DNA of 29,228 bases, from IMG/VR virus record IMGVR_UViG_3300044730_000517, positions 1-29,228 of that record. One strand, given 5' to 3'. The position numbers and the translations under genes were made by a program. The DNA is from a virus. This document shows, piece by piece, positions 3,872 to 23,300 of the stretch. The notes beneath the pieces are model-generated. The model saw only the letters and a list, made by a program, of their open reading frames with translations, did no database searches and had not been told where the DNA came from. Position 1 is the first letter of the stretch, and each line of letters starts with the position of its first letter.

Positions 3872-4161
3872 TGGACGATTTTACAACACTACGAGCGCAA
3901 GTTTTACTTTCTCACACTTACTTAAAGATTCAAGGAAGTTTAGACGAAATAAAAGCAAAGAACCCTAACCGAACCGACTTAATAGATAGTATGGAAGAAA
4001 CGTTAGAACATTTACAAGAATGTAAGGTATATTGGAATCAACTCGAACAAGAATACCGAGCGTTGCGCCAAAACGCTTATCGATTAGAATTAGTTAACTT
4101 GGACTTAAAGACGGAAAATAACCGCTTAGAAGCCATAAATAAAGCCTTAAATTACGAATAA
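3871..4161 (+). CDS. Coiled-coil protein, 96 aa, unknown
   Basis: Starts on the last base of the helicase gene stop (TAATG). The product is almost wholly helical; the second half (residues 45-95) has heptad-like leucines (TLEHLQECKVYWNQLEQEYRA, then LELVNLDLKTENNRLEAINK in part) typical of a coiled coil. No enzymatic motif. It sits between the helicase and the methyltransferase, so it could be an accessory replication or oligomerisation factor. Confidence 0.7.
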   Translation: MDDFTTLRAQVLLSHTYLKIQGSLDEIKAKNPNRTDLIDSMEETLEHLQECKVYWNQLEQEYRALRQNAYRLELVNLDLKTENNRLEAINKALNYE

Positions 4162-5234
4162 TGAAAGAAGAACATAAATTTGAATATAATTGGACATTAA
4201 AAAATGCCAATTTTACTAAAGACAAAGGAAAAGTATTTAGTTGTTTTGCCTGTGGTGGTGGTTCTACTATGGGTTATAAATTAGCCGGTTTTGATGTTAT
4301 TGGACACAACGACATTGATATAAAAATGATTGAAGTATATAAAGAAAACCATAAACCTAAATTCAGTTTTCACGAATCAATTACAACTTTCGCAAAAAGA
4401 AAAGATTTACCCAAAGAACTTTACGAACTTGATATTTTAGACGGTTCTCCGCCGTGTAGTAGTTTTTCAATGGCTGGTAATCGCGAAAAAGATTGGGGAA
4501 AAGAAAAAGTATTTAGGGAAGGACAAGCCGAACAAGTTTTAGATACTTTGTTTTTTGATTTTATTGATTTAGCAAAAGAGTTACAACCTAAAGTAGTAGT
4601 GGCTGAAAATGTAAAAGGTCTTTTATTAGGAGCCGCGAAAGAATACGTTATAAAAATATACAAAGCCTTTGATGAAGCAGGTTATTATTGCCAACACTTT
4701 TTATTAAATGCTTCAAAAATGGGTGTGCCTCAAAGAAGAGAACGAGTATTTTTTATATGTTTAAGAAAAGACCTGGCTAAACAATTTTTATATTTTGCAG
4801 ATATGTTTACTGAAGTACCTAAAATAGAAATGAATTTTAATGAGAAAGAAATACCATTTAAAGAGTTTGATAGTGGTAAACCTGGCCGTAAATTATACCC
4901 AAGTGTTATTGAATGGTATGACAAAGTTTTTATTGGTGAATCGGTTGGGAATTGCATAAGAAGATACACTGGAAAAGAAAAATTATTTTCTTATTCAAAA
5001 GTAGATCCTGATAAAGCCTTAAAAACAATTTTAAGCCCTTATGATAGTGGTGAATTTAGACACGACGATATGAGTTATTTACATAATGATGATATTATAC
5101 TTGGTGGTAGTTTTCCAAAAGATTATAATTTTTTAGATGTAAAAACAAAATATTTGGTTGGAATGTCAGTCCCTCCTGTAATGACCGCACAAATAGCAAG
5201 TAATATATACGAACAATGGTTAAGCAAGTTATGA
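4161..5234 (+). CDS. DNA (cytosine-5) methyltransferase
   Basis: A 357-residue m5C methyltransferase with its motifs in order: motif I FSCFACGGGSTMGYKLAGF (about 26-44, SAM binding); motif IV GSPPCSSFSMAG (95-106) with the catalytic Cys99; motif VI VVVAENVKG (145-153); motif VIII QRRERVFF (191-198); and a motif X-like C-terminus (VMTAQIASNIYEQWL). It transfers a methyl group from S-adenosylmethionine to cytosine in DNA. The target site cannot be read from the sequence. No restriction enzyme lies beside it, so it probably protects phage DNA from host restriction. It has clearly fewer CG dinucleotides than its neighbours (about 21 in 1,074 bases by my count), a hint of recent acquisition. Confidence 0.95.
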   Translation: MKEEHKFEYNWTLKNANFTKDKGKVFSCFACGGGSTMGYKLAGFDVIGHNDIDIKMIEVYKENHKPKFSFHESITTFAKRKDLPKELYELDILDGSPPCSSFSMAGNREKDWGKEKVFREGQAEQVLDTLFFDFIDLAKELQPKVVVAENVKGLLLGAAKEYVIKIYKAFDEAGYYCQHFLLNASKMGVPQRRERVFFICLRKDLAKQFLYFADMFTEVPKIEMNFNEKEIPFKEFDSGKPGRKLYPSVIEWYDKVFIGESVGNCIRRYTGKEKLFSYSKVDPDKALKTILSPYDSGEFRHDDMSYLHNDDIILGGSFPKDYNFLDVKTKYLVGMSVPPVMTAQIASNIYEQWLSKL

Positions 5235-5758
5235 AGTGTAAGAATTGTAAAGCCGAATTTACTCCAGTTCGATTTAATCAAAAGTTTTGTTTTGATTCGT
5301 TTTGTGTTAAAGTTTGGGTTGAACTTGAAAAGGAAAAACAATGGAAGAAAAAAAAGAAGGTACTAAAAGACGAACTCCAAACCGTTCAGGAACTCACTAA
5401 ACTTGCTCAAGTAGTGTTTAACAAATATATAAGGCTACGAGACAAGGATAAACTTTGCGTAAGTTGCGGTTCTAAACTCGGTTCAAAGTTTGACGCAGGA
5501 CACTATTTTAGTTCAGGAGGACACAAAGCCGTTACTTTTGACGAAGATAACGTACACGGGCAGTGTGTAACGTGCAATCAGCATAAACACGGAAACTTAC
5601 TTAACTACCAAATAGGAATACAACAACGAATAGGAGCGGATAGGTTAATAGAATTACATTCCCGCGCTCACGATGTCAAGAAGTGGACAAAAGACGAACT
5701 AAACGAAATTATTAAACGCTATAAAACAAAAATAAATGAACGAACAAACGCTATTTGA
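5231..5758 (+). CDS. ninG: NinG/Rap-like recombination endonuclease
   Basis: I place the start at the ATG at 5231, which overlaps the methyltransferase stop as ATGA; an in-frame ATG at 5216 would add five residues. The 175-residue product has an N-terminal zinc-ribbon-like cluster (CKNC, then FCFDSFC), a highly basic helix, and a second Cys/His-rich module (CVSCGSKLGSKFDAGHYFSS followed by HGQCVTCNQHKHGN). This is the arrangement of lambda NinG (Rap), a structure-specific nuclease acting on recombination intermediates. It fits with the ERF and exonuclease genes downstream. Confidence 0.85.
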   Translation: MKCKNCKAEFTPVRFNQKFCFDSFCVKVWVELEKEKQWKKKKKVLKDELQTVQELTKLAQVVFNKYIRLRDKDKLCVSCGSKLGSKFDAGHYFSSGGHKAVTFDEDNVHGQCVTCNQHKHGNLLNYQIGIQQRIGADRLIELHSRAHDVKKWTKDELNEIIKRYKTKINERTNAI

Positions 5759-9973: not shown

Positions 9974-10397
9974 AATACATAGTCCCGAACACCTTTGGGA
10001 ACTATTCAGCGATTATAAAAGCCAAGTAAAAAACAACCCTATCTTAAAACACACTTTCGTAGGTAAGGAAGGAAGAAGCGAATACAGTGAACTAGAACGA
10101 CCTCTAACCATAGAAGGCTTTGAATGTTACTGCGCTGATTTAGGGATTATAGGCGATTTAAGCCACTATTTCGCGAATACGAATAATAGATACAAACGCT
10201 TTTTAACTATCGTTACGCGCATACGTAAGGAAGTAAGAAACGACCAAATAGGCGGGGGTATGGCAGGAATCTATAATTCAAGCATAACCGCACGACTAAA
10301 TAACCTAGTCGAAAAGAAGGAAATTACCAACGTAGAGCAACCGCTATTTTTAGATGTTTCAGAAAACGACAGCGATAAACAAGATACTGAATCTTAA
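9957..10397 (+). CDS. terS: Terminase small subunit
   Basis: A 146-residue protein starting MGRPNKIHSPEHLWELFSDY, with LKHTFVGKEG and ERPLTIEGFECYCADLG blocks typical of a small terminase family of Bacteroidota phages. The middle (IGDLSHYFANTNNRYKRFL) is helical and the tail is acidic. It recognises packaging sites on phage DNA and hands them to the large subunit. It overlaps terL by 44 bases, which supports the assignment. Confidence 0.8.
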   Translation: MGRPNKIHSPEHLWELFSDYKSQVKNNPILKHTFVGKEGRSEYSELERPLTIEGFECYCADLGIIGDLSHYFANTNNRYKRFLTIVTRIRKEVRNDQIGGGMAGIYNSSITARLNNLVEKKEITNVEQPLFLDVSENDSDKQDTES

Positions 10398-11514
10398 GAA
10401 ACGGATTAAGATTATTCAAGGGGGAACTTCGGCGGGTAAGACGTTTGGAATTCTTCCTGTATTAATTGACAAGGCCGCACGACACGAAGGAATCGAAATA
10501 AGCGTAGTTGCAGAAACAATACCCCATTTAAGACGGGGTGCGCTCAAAGATTTCTTAAAGATAATGAAATGGACGGGTAGATTCTTCGAAGATAGGTTTA
10601 ACAAATCGTTACTCCGTTATGAGTTCGCAAATGGTTCGGTTATAGAATTCTTTTCCGCAGATGACTCAAGTAAACTACGTGGTGCAAGGCGCGACATTCT
10701 TTATATAAACGAATGTAATAACGTTACGTTTGATTCTTACAACGAGTTAGCTATACGAACACGTAAGGAAGTTTACCTAGATTTCAACCCGTCTAATGAA
10801 TTTTGGGTACACAAAGAATTAAAAGACGAACCCGATTCGGACTTTTTAATCTTAACTTACAAGGATAACGAAGCCTTAGACCAAAGCATTATAGACCAAA
10901 TCGAAAAGAACAAAGAAAAGGCAAAGACGTCTAGTTATTGGGCTAACTGGTGGAAGGTTTACGGGGAAGGCCAATTAGGAATGTTAGAAGGGGTGGTATT
11001 CTCAAATTGGAAAACAATAGACACGATACCAAAAGAAGCAAAGTTACTCGGGATAGGGTTGGATTTTGGTTATACGAACGATCCGACTGCGATAATAGAA
11101 ATATACAACTACAACGGCCAACGAATTGTAAACGAATTAGTTTACCAAACGGGTTTACTTAATAGCGATATAGCGAAACTTCTACCAAAACACGTTATAG
11201 TTTACGCGGATTCTTCCGAACCCAAAAGTATAGACGAAATAAAACGTTTTGGTGTAACGATTAAAGGAGTAACCAAAGGTAAGGACTCGATAAACTACGG
11301 GATAGATGTAATTCAGCGTAACGAATACTTAGTAACGTCAAACAGCAGTAATTTAATCAAAGAATTACGCGCGTACGTTTGGGACACTGACAAACAAGGC
11401 AACCGACTAAACAAACCAATAGATTTTAATAACCACGCTATCGATGCGTTTAGATACCACGAAATGGAAACTCTAGGGATAGGCTCAAACTACGGAAGCT
11501 ATGCAATACGATAA
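10354..11514 (+). CDS. terL: Terminase large subunit
   Basis: A 386-residue packaging motor ATPase-nuclease. Walker A is GGTSAGKT (23-30); Walker B is DILYINE (114-120) with catalytic Glu120; coupling motif LDFNPSNEF (142-150). The RNase H-like nuclease shows GLDFGY (Asp237), YADSSEP (Asp286) and NHAIDAFRYHE (Asp364), the three acidic metal ligands. The ATG at 10354 lies inside terS and leaves 22 residues before Walker A, which is short but usual in this group. All active-site motifs are intact. Confidence 0.96.
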   Translation: MFQKTTAINKILNLKKRIKIIQGGTSAGKTFGILPVLIDKAARHEGIEISVVAETIPHLRRGALKDFLKIMKWTGRFFEDRFNKSLLRYEFANGSVIEFFSADDSSKLRGARRDILYINECNNVTFDSYNELAIRTRKEVYLDFNPSNEFWVHKELKDEPDSDFLILTYKDNEALDQSIIDQIEKNKEKAKTSSYWANWWKVYGEGQLGMLEGVVFSNWKTIDTIPKEAKLLGIGLDFGYTNDPTAIIEIYNYNGQRIVNELVYQTGLLNSDIAKLLPKHVIVYADSSEPKSIDEIKRFGVTIKGVTKGKDSINYGIDVIQRNEYLVTSNSSNLIKELRAYVWDTDKQGNRLNKPIDFNNHAIDAFRYHEMETLGIGSNYGSYAIR

Positions 11515-11693: not shown

Positions 11694-12425
11694 ATGAAGT
11701 TAGATATAACTATACCAAGTTCAATTAGTGAAATCCCTTTAGTACACTATCAAAAGTTTCTAAAGTTGCAAAAATCTTCCAACGACGAAGAATTTGTAGC
11801 GCAGAAAATGATAGAGATATTTTGCGGTATTCAGTTAAAGGACGTTGTTAAAATGAAACTAACAAGCGTTAACGAACTGATTGTACACTTTCAAACTATA
11901 TTCGCGGAACGTCCGAAGTTTAAACCTACGTTTAAGATAGGCGAAATAGAATTCGGATTTATTCCCGACCTAGAGAATATAAGTTTCGGCGAATACGTCG
12001 ATTTAGATAACTACCTTTCGAAGTGGGAAGATTTCCACAAAGCTATGGCGGTAATGTACCGACCTATCAAAATACGGAATAAAGATAAATACGAAATAAT
12101 CGAATACACGGGAGCGGGCGAATACTCCGAACTAATGGAGTTCGCGCCAATGGACGTAGCGATAGCGGCTTCGGTTTTTTTTTGGACTTTAGGAAGCGAG
12201 TTGTTAAGCGCTACCCTAAATTATTTGGAGAACCAACTGAGAACGATGAACGAGAACGAACAAGCGACTTTAGCGCACGAACTCAATTCGGGAAAAAGTG
12301 GGGTTGGTATTCAAGCATCTATGGACTCGCTAAAGGCGACCTTACAAAATACGACGAAGTTACTAAATACGGATTATTTAAATGTCTTACCTATCTTACC
12401 TTCGAAGCGGAAAAGAACGAAATAG
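11694..12425 (+). CDS. Tail assembly chaperone-like protein (frame-0 product)
   Basis: A 243-residue protein starting MKLDITIPSSISEIPLVHYQ. The N-terminal half is helical (binding-like), followed by FGFIPDLENISFGEYVDLDN and a region MDVAIAASVFFWTLGSELLS. The C-terminus is rich in Lys and Arg (PSKRKRTK). I recall relatives in Bacteroidota phages described only as hypothetical. A -1 reading frame without a usable start is nested in its last third and encodes a conserved-looking module; together with the slippery site at 12290 this resembles the G/GT tail-assembly chaperones of siphophages. The chaperone role is inferred from that frameshift layout. Confidence 0.65.
   Translation: MKLDITIPSSISEIPLVHYQKFLKLQKSSNDEEFVAQKMIEIFCGIQLKDVVKMKLTSVNELIVHFQTIFAERPKFKPTFKIGEIEFGFIPDLENISFGEYVDLDNYLSKWEDFHKAMAVMYRPIKIRNKDKYEIIEYTGAGEYSELMEFAPMDVAIAASVFFWTLGSELLSATLNYLENQLRTMNENEQATLAHELNSGKSGVGIQASMDSLKATLQNTTKLLNTDYLNVLPILPSKRKRTK
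12290..12296 (+). promoter_or_regulatory. Probable -1 ribosomal frameshift site G GGA AAA
   Basis: In the frame of the gene at 11694 the bases read G GGA AAA, a canonical X-XXY-YYZ slippery heptamer and one base different from the lambda G/T site (GGGAAAG). A slip here continues directly into the -1 frame ORF that lacks its own start. No well-placed downstream hairpin is evident. Confidence 0.75.
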
Positions 12426-12454
12426 AAATGTTAGAAATTAAAAAGAAATACTAA
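12296..12454 (+). CDS. -1 frame extension of the chaperone gene (GT-like module)
   Basis: After a -1 slip at 12290-12296, translation continues for 52 codons in the new frame, beginning KWGWYSSIYGLAKGD and going on through LTYLTFEAEKNEIEM. The fusion would be 253 residues (201 from the frame of 11694 plus 52). This frame is open from 12089 and has no ATG before codon 46 of the module; a TTG at 12182 is the only other early start. The protein-like module starts almost exactly at the slip site and ends with TAATG overlapping the next gene. WGWY-SIY-LAKGD-type sequences are familiar to me from other Bacteroidota phages. Internal initiation at a weak start is the alternative. Confidence 0.7.
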   Translation, partial: KWGWYSSIYGLAKGDLTKYDEVTKYGLFKCLTYLTFEAEKNEIEMLEIKKKY

Positions 12455-16907: not shown

Positions 16908-17089
16908 GTTACATTAATCAAATAGTCCAACTTTTACAAGTAGCGGATTTCGTAGGCGAACACGAATACATTGAAATCGCAAAAGGAAAATACAAACTAC
17001 ACTACGACTTGAAAGGGACGTACAAACAAGCGATAAGAGAGTTTAGAATACAAAGACAAAAAAGAAATGGCAGAAAAAAGAACTATTGA
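16904..17089 (+). CDS. Small basic protein before the tape measure, 61 aa
   Basis: ATG overlaps the previous TGA. The product begins MSYINQIVQLLQVADFVGEH and ends in a strongly basic tail (IQRQKRNGRKKNY). The 3' 23 bases are shared with the start of the tape measure gene, so the two are probably translationally coupled. Position resembles chaperones or small factors acting with the tape measure, but no motif supports this. Confidence 0.65.
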   Translation: MSYINQIVQLLQVADFVGEHEYIEIAKGKYKLHYDLKGTYKQAIREFRIQRQKRNGRKKNY

Positions 17090-19523
17090 ACTTGAGATTC
17101 AAGATAACACTAAAAGCCTTAAGGCGCAGTATAAAGAAGCCGTTGTAGAATTACAAAAAGTTTCCGCTGCATATGGAGAAACCTCGGACGAAGCAATTTT
17201 AGCAGCAAAGGCCGCCGCCGAATTAAAAGACCAAATCGGATTTACTAACGACTTAGTAAACTCATTTAACCCCGACGCTAAATTTGATGCACTAAGCAAA
17301 TCGTTTGGCGGTGTGTTAGACGGCTTTTCTGCGGTTCAAGGTGCAATGGGGTTAGTTGGTGTTGAATCCGAATCGGTAGAACAAGCAATGCTTAAAGTTC
17401 AAAGCGCTATGGCTTTATCTCAAGGTTTTCAAGGTTTAATGGAAGCCAAAGATTCATTTAAGCAATTAGGCACGGTAGCAAAAGAAACGTTTAAAAGTTT
17501 ATCTTCTGAAAGTTCATTAGCGGGTAAGGCTACAAGCGCACTTGGTCCTGTATGGAAGGCGGTTGGATTAAGCGGTAAAAATGCTTTAAGTGGAATCCGT
17601 GCGGGAATCGCTGCAACGGGAATAGGTTTATTAGTAGTTGCATTGGGTGCTATCGTTGCTTATTGGGACGATATTAAAGCCGCCGTAGGTGGGGTTACTG
17701 GTGAAATGAAAAAGAACTTAGAGTTAAGCCACGAACAAGTAGCAAACGCACAAACCGAAGTAGAATTATTCGACTTACAAGAAAACTCATTAAAATTACA
17801 AGGGAAAAGCGAAGAAGAAATATTAAAGATTCGCCAAGGTAAATTAAAAGTTTTAGCTAAAGAACAAGAAGAAGAAATAAAATTAGCGGAAAATAAAAAA
17901 ATATTAGAAGTAGAAGCATCAAAACGAAATCAAAAGTTTTTAAGTTTGTACATTCAAGGGGTTTTACTTGGAGCAAGTTCGTTTGCTTATGTATTCACTG
18001 CGATAATAGACGGCGTTTCGAATGGTATTATTTTTCTAGGTAAGAAATTAAATTCGTTTTCGCAAGGTTTCCAAAACATAATGATAGACGCAATAGTTTT
18101 GCCCGTTGAAACTGCGTTAAAAGGAGTAAACGAATTACTTAAGGTTGCGGGATTATCAACTATAAACGTTAAAGGAATTGTAGGGGATATTAAAGGTTCG
18201 ATGAAGGAAGTTACTTCCATAGGTAACAAATTTATTCAAGGGTTAGAAGGAACGACTTTAACAAAAGATTTATTCAACCTAACTAAAGAATATGCAGCCG
18301 ATCCGTTAGCTAAATTAGTGTTTGATCCCGAAGCGGTAACAAAAGAGGGGGACGATGCGTTAAAGGCGATGAAAACGGAACTCGCGAAAACTCAAAACGA
18401 AATCGCGGGCGCGGAATTAGAAATTAGAGATATTAAAAAAGAATCTAACAAAGCAACGGCAAAAGACAAAAAAGAATCCGATACTTCGATGACTGAATAT
18501 CTAAACGCTTTGGAAGCCGAACGACAAGCGAATATAAAAGACGCAAGGGAAAAAGAATTACAGGAAGCCGCGAATAAATACGATGAACTTACCGCGTTAG
18601 CTGATAAGGCGGGACAAGACACAACTAAAATTACCGAAGATTATATAGCACAAAGAAAAGAAATAAATAATCGTTTTGATGCGTTAGAAATCGAAGAACA
18701 ACAAAAGAAGGACGCGGAACTTTTACAAAAAATGGTTGAAGCGGATGCGGCCGCGTGGGAAATAGAAAAGAATAATCGTCAACTTCGAATTGACGGGATG
18801 AAAGACGGAAGAAAAAAGGAATTAGAAATAATCGATTTAGCTTACGATTCTGAATTACTCGCTTTGAATAATCAATTAGACGCGAAAACAATAAGCGAAG
18901 AAGAATACCAAAAACAAAAGGTATTAATGGAGGAAAAGTACGGTAAACAAATTGCCGATACTAACAAAAAGTTTGACGAAGAAGACAAAGCACGAAGACA
19001 AGCGGCAATGGAGCGTAACGCGGATTTTGCTAAACAAGGATTATCTATTATTTCAGACATTACGGAAATGTTTGGTAAGAAATCAGAGAAACAAGCGAAA
19101 CGCGCATTCCAAGTTAAGAAGGCGGCTAATATTGCTTCGGCTTTGGTTGATACGTATATGAGCGCGAACGCGGCTTATTTATCGCAGTTTACACCCGTTC
19201 CCGATCCGACTTCCCCCGTTCGTGGTGGTATCGCTGCGGGGTTAGCAGTTGCGGCGGGATTAGTTAACGTTGCTAAAATTTCTTCGCAAAAGTTTGAAGG
19301 TGGCGGCGCTTCGGGCGGTGGTGGTGGTTCTACTGGTGGCGGTGGTTCAATAGGTAGTGGAATGTCGGGCAGTCAAGCACCTTCGTTTAACGTTGTAGGT
19401 AATAACGGACTAAATCAATTAGCACAACTACAACAACAACCAACACAAGCCTACGTGGTGAGTGGACAAGTTACCACGGCTCAAAGTTTGGATAGGAATA
19501 GAATACAAAACGCAACACTTTAA
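17067..19523 (+). CDS. Tail tape measure protein
   Basis: The largest gene, 818 residues. Helical N-terminus (MAEKRTIELEIQDNTKSLKA), hydrophobic segments at about 177-200 and 291-325, a long charged helical or coiled-coil stretch (roughly 430-700), a Gly/Ser-rich linker near 745-770, and a C-terminal end including QAYVVSGQVTTAQSLDRNRI. I know this ending from tape measures of Bacteroidota phages. The protein sets tail length; at about 0.15 nm per residue the tail would be roughly 120 nm. It probably also helps DNA entry through its hydrophobic segments. Confidence 0.9.
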   Translation: MAEKRTIELEIQDNTKSLKAQYKEAVVELQKVSAAYGETSDEAILAAKAAAELKDQIGFTNDLVNSFNPDAKFDALSKSFGGVLDGFSAVQGAMGLVGVESESVEQAMLKVQSAMALSQGFQGLMEAKDSFKQLGTVAKETFKSLSSESSLAGKATSALGPVWKAVGLSGKNALSGIRAGIAATGIGLLVVALGAIVAYWDDIKAAVGGVTGEMKKNLELSHEQVANAQTEVELFDLQENSLKLQGKSEEEILKIRQGKLKVLAKEQEEEIKLAENKKILEVEASKRNQKFLSLYIQGVLLGASSFAYVFTAIIDGVSNGIIFLGKKLNSFSQGFQNIMIDAIVLPVETALKGVNELLKVAGLSTINVKGIVGDIKGSMKEVTSIGNKFIQGLEGTTLTKDLFNLTKEYAADPLAKLVFDPEAVTKEGDDALKAMKTELAKTQNEIAGAELEIRDIKKESNKATAKDKKESDTSMTEYLNALEAERQANIKDAREKELQEAANKYDELTALADKAGQDTTKITEDYIAQRKEINNRFDALEIEEQQKKDAELLQKMVEADAAAWEIEKNNRQLRIDGMKDGRKKELEIIDLAYDSELLALNNQLDAKTISEEEYQKQKVLMEEKYGKQIADTNKKFDEEDKARRQAAMERNADFAKQGLSIISDITEMFGKKSEKQAKRAFQVKKAANIASALVDTYMSANAAYLSQFTPVPDPTSPVRGGIAAGLAVAAGLVNVAKISSQKFEGGGASGGGGGSTGGGGSIGSGMSGSQAPSFNVVGNNGLNQLAQLQQQPTQAYVVSGQVTTAQSLDRNRIQNATL

Positions 19524-22736: not shown

Positions 22737-23300
22737 ATGAGCTGCGATATTAGCCACGGAAGATTAGAACAATGTAAAGATTCAATTTCGGGTATTCAAG
22801 CGATTTACGTATTAAACTACGGACTTTACGATCCATACACCGACGTTACTTACGACACGGCAGTAGGTTTGGAAGACGTTATTACTGCGATTTCTTTACC
22901 CGCTTTATCTAACATTTACAAATTTGAATTGAAAGGCGCAAATATGTTCGATACAACGATTACTAGTTCACGTGATAACGGAACTACGTTCTTCGAACAA
23001 GTTTTAACCGTACAATTAAAGAAACAAGACGCGATTACCCACAAACAAGTTAAATTACTTGCTTACGGACGTCCTAACATTATCGTTCAAACAAACGCAA
23101 ATCAATTCTTTATTGCGGGATTAGTTCGCGGAATGGACGTTACTGCGGGAACTATTAATAGCGGTACAAATTTGGGGGACTACAATGGTTATAGTTTGAC
23201 TTTCACTGGTCAAGAAGCCGTGCCTGCGAACTTCCTAGATTGTTCCGATGAACCGACATTAGTTGCATTATTAGGTAACCCTACGGTGGTTAATTCTTAA
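22737..23300 (+). CDS. Major tail (tube) protein
   Basis: A 187-residue protein starting MSCDISHGRLEQCKDSISGI and continuing QAIYVLNYG. Alternating strands (TVQLKKQDAITHKQVKLLAY) and a C-terminal DCSDEPTLVALLGNP fit tail-tube subunits. I recall SCDI-x-x-GR-E-CKDS as the opening of the major tail protein in Bacteroidota siphophages. It is flanked on both sides by strong terminators, and codons look optimised as in the capsid gene. Confidence 0.8.
   Translation: MSCDISHGRLEQCKDSISGIQAIYVLNYGLYDPYTDVTYDTAVGLEDVITAISLPALSNIYKFELKGANMFDTTITSSRDNGTTFFEQVLTVQLKKQDAITHKQVKLLAYGRPNIIVQTNANQFFIAGLVRGMDVTAGTINSGTNLGDYNGYSLTFTGQEAVPANFLDCSDEPTLVALLGNPTVVNS

Follow-up and report, generated by a model that had tools for sequence, protein, structure and literature searches.

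The window analysed here, 29,228 nucleotides of tailed phage DNA from an IMG/VR virus record, carries a gene that appears to be read in two frames, and it raises the question of where the frame is switched, by which machine, and what the resulting proteins may be. The initial annotation had proposed a programmed -1 frameshift at a G GGA AAA heptamer in this gene. Much of what it described was present in the sequence, namely the 243-codon ORF, the heptamer in frame, a -1 frame open from 12089 to 12454 with no ATG near the module (KWGWYSSIYGLAKGD was found in this frame), the TAATG junction with the next gene, and a tape measure gene (17067) five genes away. It overlooked a run of nine T (T9) upstream of the heptamer. 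Table 1 shows the coordinates of the features.

Table 1. Features of the recoded gene and its surroundings in the window
Feature	Coordinates	Strand	Evidence
Frame-0 gene, G-like, 243 aa	11694..12425	+	ORF; PHROG 32199, E 2.7e-13; AF2 model
T9 slip site, frame 0 GTT TTT TTT TGG	12175..12183	+	Conservation; synonymous-rate collapse
-1-frame extension, T-like module, 90 aa and stop, begins LDFRKR	12182..12454	+	Conserved; omega 0.19-0.40; AF2
Dual-coding stretch, frame-0 tail over -1 module, 240 nt	12183..12422	+	Selection in both frames; frames kept open
G GGA AAA, rejected slip site	12290..12296	+	Absent in most homologues; 8 copies in window
Next gene, 151 aa	12454..12909	+	ATG overlaps -1-frame stop (TAATG)
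Tape measure protein	17067..19523	+	PHROG 24676 'tail length tape measure protein', E 4.5e-23

The nearest named relatives of the window phage were the Nonlabens (Persicivirga) phages P12024S and P12024L, and homologous genes were also present in Winogradskyella and other Bacteroidetes assemblies. Some relatives came from contigs assigned to Epsilonproteobacteria, Euryarchaeota and Pseudooceanicola bins; these are likely misbinned phage contigs. The gene order was terminase large subunit, a small ORF and then the frame-0 gene, with the tape measure gene further downstream on the same strand and five genes in between. PHROG 32199, the family matched by the frame-0 protein, is of unknown function, and 61/61 sampled homologues matched it likewise. 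In the AF2 model of this protein, residues 1-178 were folded, while residues 180-243, past the slip site, were mostly of low confidence. Elsewhere in the window, a C-5 cytosine DNA methyltransferase gene (4161-5234, PF00145) was followed by a NinG-like gene (5216-5758, PF05766). Positions 22737-23300 coded for a 187-aa protein that was tail tube-like by eye and matched PHROG 19091 (unknown function), with no Pfam match; if this is the tail tube gene, the tail tube and tape measure genes lie far apart in an unusual order.

T9 was the only run of at least nine A or T in the window, and it contained the heptamer T_TTT_TTT (12176-12182) in frame. Among the first-round distinct sequences, T9 was found in identical register in 100/100, including the Nonlabens phage (26% identity). 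The wider collection comprised 410 distinct homologous loci (337 distinct loci and 73 of a divergent branch, profile match 99.9%), part of them collected with queries stopping before the T-run or with codon-agnostic patterns. All 410, down to about 26% identity, had a run of 9 (358 loci) or 10 T (52 loci), and none had a run of eight or fewer or of eleven or more. The T10 loci had the same frame relation as the T9 loci, and the divergent branch, about 26% identical to the window, shared the T9/T10 run and had a different N-terminus. Directly after T9, an L-x-F-R motif was nearly universal among the homologues.

The run was also kept free of interruptions. TTC made up 26-39% of the Phe codons upstream of the run and interrupted the run in no member of the family; a T-to-C change at the last base of the heptamer would be silent in both frames in 67 non-redundant lineages and was never observed. 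T9/T10 was kept in differing codon registers, even where neither flanking residue supplied a T. In such cases a third TTT codon was present, as in ATG/TTA-TTT TTT TTT-CTG, AGT-TTT TTT TTT-CAT and CGG/AGG-TTT TTT TTT-GCT/GTT. These cases are suggestive rather than proof because they come from about three independent lineages, and a 2x2 test on the T-run pattern, being inflated by relatedness, was taken as pattern only.

Selection was estimated as omega by frame from 53 disjoint sequence pairs. Upstream of T9, frame 0 had an omega of 0.12 and the -1 frame was unconstrained (SN/SS 0.84). In the stretch from T9 to GGGAAAA, both frames were constrained (frame 0 about 0.50, -1 frame about 0.40), and past GGGAAAA the -1 frame was under strong constraint (omega 0.19, bootstrap 0.14-0.26) and frame 0 under weak constraint (0.70, 0.54-0.88). 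The frame-0 synonymous rate was about 0.2-0.39 in all 10-codon windows before T9 and dropped to 0.008 in the one beginning at T9. After T9, the codon position with most variation in clean clades moved from frame-0 position 3 to position 2, which is position 3 of the -1 frame; the (480,281) group, which probably mixes sequences with indels, was left out of this comparison. On this comparative evidence, the frameshift is real and the entry into two-frame constraint is placeable to one codon. The comparison of homologues establishes the slip site, its direction, the fusion frame and the dual coding. The two-frame alignment suggested as a check in the initial annotation thus bore out constraint in both frames and did not bear out conservation of GGGAAAA.

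The -1 module joined after residue 163 of the 243-residue protein, giving a computed 253-aa fusion, and the product sizes of 243 and 253 aa proposed earlier stand as computed values. AF2 modelled the module as all helical (pLDDT 81). An added U and a -1 ribosomal slip would give the identical 253-aa protein, and the loss of one U a 165-aa product (computed). The fold-match lists of the G model and the T module shared about eleven viral proteins (226-280 aa), a number of which matched weakly; matches to both models are expected of in-frame fusions, and these proteins are likely, but not proven, to be such fusions. The next gene had the same -1 offset as in the window in 57/80 non-redundant relatives, and the overlap of its ATG with the -1 stop makes translational coupling to the fusion frame probable.

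With the slip site at T9, the overlap was about 240 nt, nearly twice the 130 bases claimed previously. The dual-coded length was 80 codons in the window and 55-88 codons in most of the family, and the frame-0 tail past the slip was shorter in the divergent branch (mostly 25-48 codons). Resampling of -1 codons under an unchanged -1 protein left frame 0 open over its observed length in 0/2000 trials for the window, and gave P <= 0.026 in every long-overlap lineage tested. For the Nonlabens type, with a frame-0 tail of 16-25 codons, the open length was no different from chance. From the resampling P and the omega values, the long frame-0 tail is, as judged from sequence comparison, kept open yet weakly constrained.

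Three other readings of the locus were weighed against a slip at T9. A slip at G GGA AAA, under which the -1 frame would go untranslated for 107 nt past T9, is scarcely credible: the window and some relatives do carry the heptamer in frame, but most homologues lack it, among them some that are more than 85% identical, and there were 8 copies of GGGAAAA in the window. The -1 frame was already constrained (omega about 0.4) between T9 and the heptamer, the frame-0 synonymous rate collapsed at T9, which lies some 38 codons before GGGAAAA, and the nearly universal L-x-F-R lies just after T9. This site was rejected for the family; the proposed heptamer class gives way to a T-run at which the slip is possibly transcriptional rather than ribosomal. 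The module could instead be a separate gene with its own start and no fusion, as the annotation of P12024S has it and as the TTG found as the first -1 codon after the run in the window would allow. This is very improbable and was rejected, since start codons are missing in most relatives: the first -1 codon was TTA, which is no start, in 111/250 relatives and TTA or TTT in 159/250, and ahead of the core W-x-W-Y motif 77/80 non-redundant modules had no ATG and 68/80 had no ATG, GTG or TTG. Constraint began within the T-run itself, and the nearest upstream -1 stop lay down to two codons ahead of the first codon of the module. T-runs are prone to error and mutation, and the run could therefore be a sequencing error or a phase-variable tract in a gene that is truly one open frame. 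A frame-changing length was, however, found in 0/410 loci, T10 preserved the frame relation, the Nonlabens isolates agreed, and frame 0 past T9 was kept open and mildly constrained, so that this reading was also rejected and can hardly be entertained.

The choice between polymerase and ribosome is closer. Nine A or T is the usual threshold for transcriptional slippage in bacteria, and a downstream stimulatory RNA structure is usual, though not obligatory, in -1 ribosomal frameshifting. In many bacterial genomes, A/T runs are visibly selected against once they reach nine (PMC1088944), and both Shigella and Thermus make use of slippage at runs of this length (PMC5009743; PMC1088944). Both signals were found at every locus of the 410, as an uninterrupted and conserved run of at least nine T (the A9/T9 slippage criterion) and as the X_XXY_YYZ-type heptamer T_TTT_TTT in frame at the switch. 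Because U_UUU_UUU was present in every case, ribosomal slippage would account for nearly everything too, and classical -1 ribosomal frameshifting on it, with no part for RNA polymerase and the G/GT arrangement unchanged, is a serious possibility, if somewhat short of an even chance. The usual flanks (V/L/I before, Y/W after) explain two of the nine T's, and the tail-chaperone recoding described in the literature consulted is ribosomal (PMC5009743). Against this, seven T's would be enough, yet fewer than nine were never found, even where the flanks give no T; U_UUU_UUC is a heptamer expected to shift about as well as U_UUU_UUU (PMC4066793), yet TTC never occurs in the run. A conserved downstream stimulator was not found, with a mean z of about -0.4 over 88 sequences, and RNAalifold on 13 sequences gave a covariation term of -0.13 and a weak local stem only, with one pair showing two-sided change; stimulator-less heptamers are weak in E. 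coli (PMC4066793). The T-run minimum of nine was invariant and gives a slight lean to the polymerase, so that, judged from the sequences, transcriptional slippage appears slightly likelier than a ribosomal -1 slip on U_UUU_UUU, and both may contribute.

It is quite probable that one start gives two proteins through the T9 switch and that these form a G/GT-like tail assembly chaperone pair. The majority product would be the 243-aa G-like protein. At T9, RNA polymerase would add one U (9 to 10) or the ribosome would slip by -1, and in a minority of products Val-Phe-Phe (residues 161-163) would be followed by the 90-aa helical T-like module in the -1 frame, giving the 253-aa G-T fusion. On the model of lambda gpG/gpGT, the tape measure protein, presumed client of the G part, would be bound by the shared part and the tail tube protein by the extra module, and neither product would be expected in virions; the ratio of the two chaperones would then follow from the rate of slippage. 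We infer the occurrence, machine and rate of the slip, as well as the chaperone role.

A tail chaperone gene customarily adjoins the tape measure gene, though not obligatorily; in the window the two genes were not adjacent. Two products from one start by a conserved -1 switch, as in G/GT, are predicted by the sequence comparison. The most likely role, by analogy with lambda G/GT, is that of a pair of tail assembly chaperones: the tape measure gene lies downstream, and the design has two products, of which the longer gains a helical module. Conservation supports this role, which the initial annotation had suggested, and likewise its -1 direction, its fusion to a protein-like module and its long overprinting. 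Pfam, PDB sequence and PDB fold searches with the gene products gave no relevant match, phrog_166 'tail protein' matched 11/61 homologues weakly, and one named chaperone came up in the fold search at E 0.41. A likeness to G/GT is claimed and membership by homology is not, because similarity to the named chaperones was not significant.

Taken further, there is about an even chance that a large phage family, probably of Bacteroidetes, sets its chaperone ratio by RNA polymerase slippage at an invariant T9/T10 rather than by ribosomal slippage, with two C-termini overprinted for up to 88 codons. In the open-access literature there was no report of the T9 site or of a frameshifted tail chaperone in P12024-related phages, and none of transcriptional slippage in a tail chaperone. 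With its minimum of nine T's in whatever register, no conserved stimulator and long dual coding, the T9 family offers a natural test of RNA polymerase slippage in virion assembly.

Among known systems, lambda gpG/gpGT (PMC5009743) resembles the window gene in having one start and two products, a minority of which carries a C-terminal module by a -1 switch, and in lying upstream of the tape measure gene. The window gene differs in its T9/T10 site, which is not a lambda-type heptamer, in a slip far from the frame-0 end with up to 88 codons in two frames, and in its position behind the terminase, with five genes separating it from the tape measure gene; sequence homology of the window protein to lambda and other named chaperones was not detectable. 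Shigella mxiE and spa13 and Thermus dnaX (PMC5009743; PMC1088944) likewise have a conserved uninterrupted run of 9 (or 10) joining two frames, but they belong to cells or plasmids and are backed by RNA evidence, whereas the window gene is a phage morphogenesis gene and its evidence is comparative. In the 10047-10927 region (minus strand) of Flavobacterium phage 6H, a 191-aa protein with a weak fold match to the G model ended near T_TTT_TTC, and about 300 nt downstream of its gene were unannotated and held an open frame. It is possible that this gene is a differently recoded chaperone; it was set aside as support because its -1 frame at T_TTT_TTC stops at once. A further parallel was gp38/gp39 of Nonlabens phages P12024S and P12024L, where the G-like protein is homologous (26% identity), the register of T9 is that of the window and the -1 module is of the same type. 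Unlike the window gene, its frame 0 ended 25 codons past the slip, and gp38 and gp39 are annotated as two unrelated hypothetical proteins. In P12024S (NC_018271.1, 4001-4792, gp38-gp40), gp39 is annotated as a separate short gene with its start inside the -1 frame, and gp40 as a gene on the opposite strand. The gp39 annotation is probably a misannotated G-T fusion, and across hundreds of environmental phage contigs the predicted fusion protein has been missed, split or left unannotated as 'hypothetical'.
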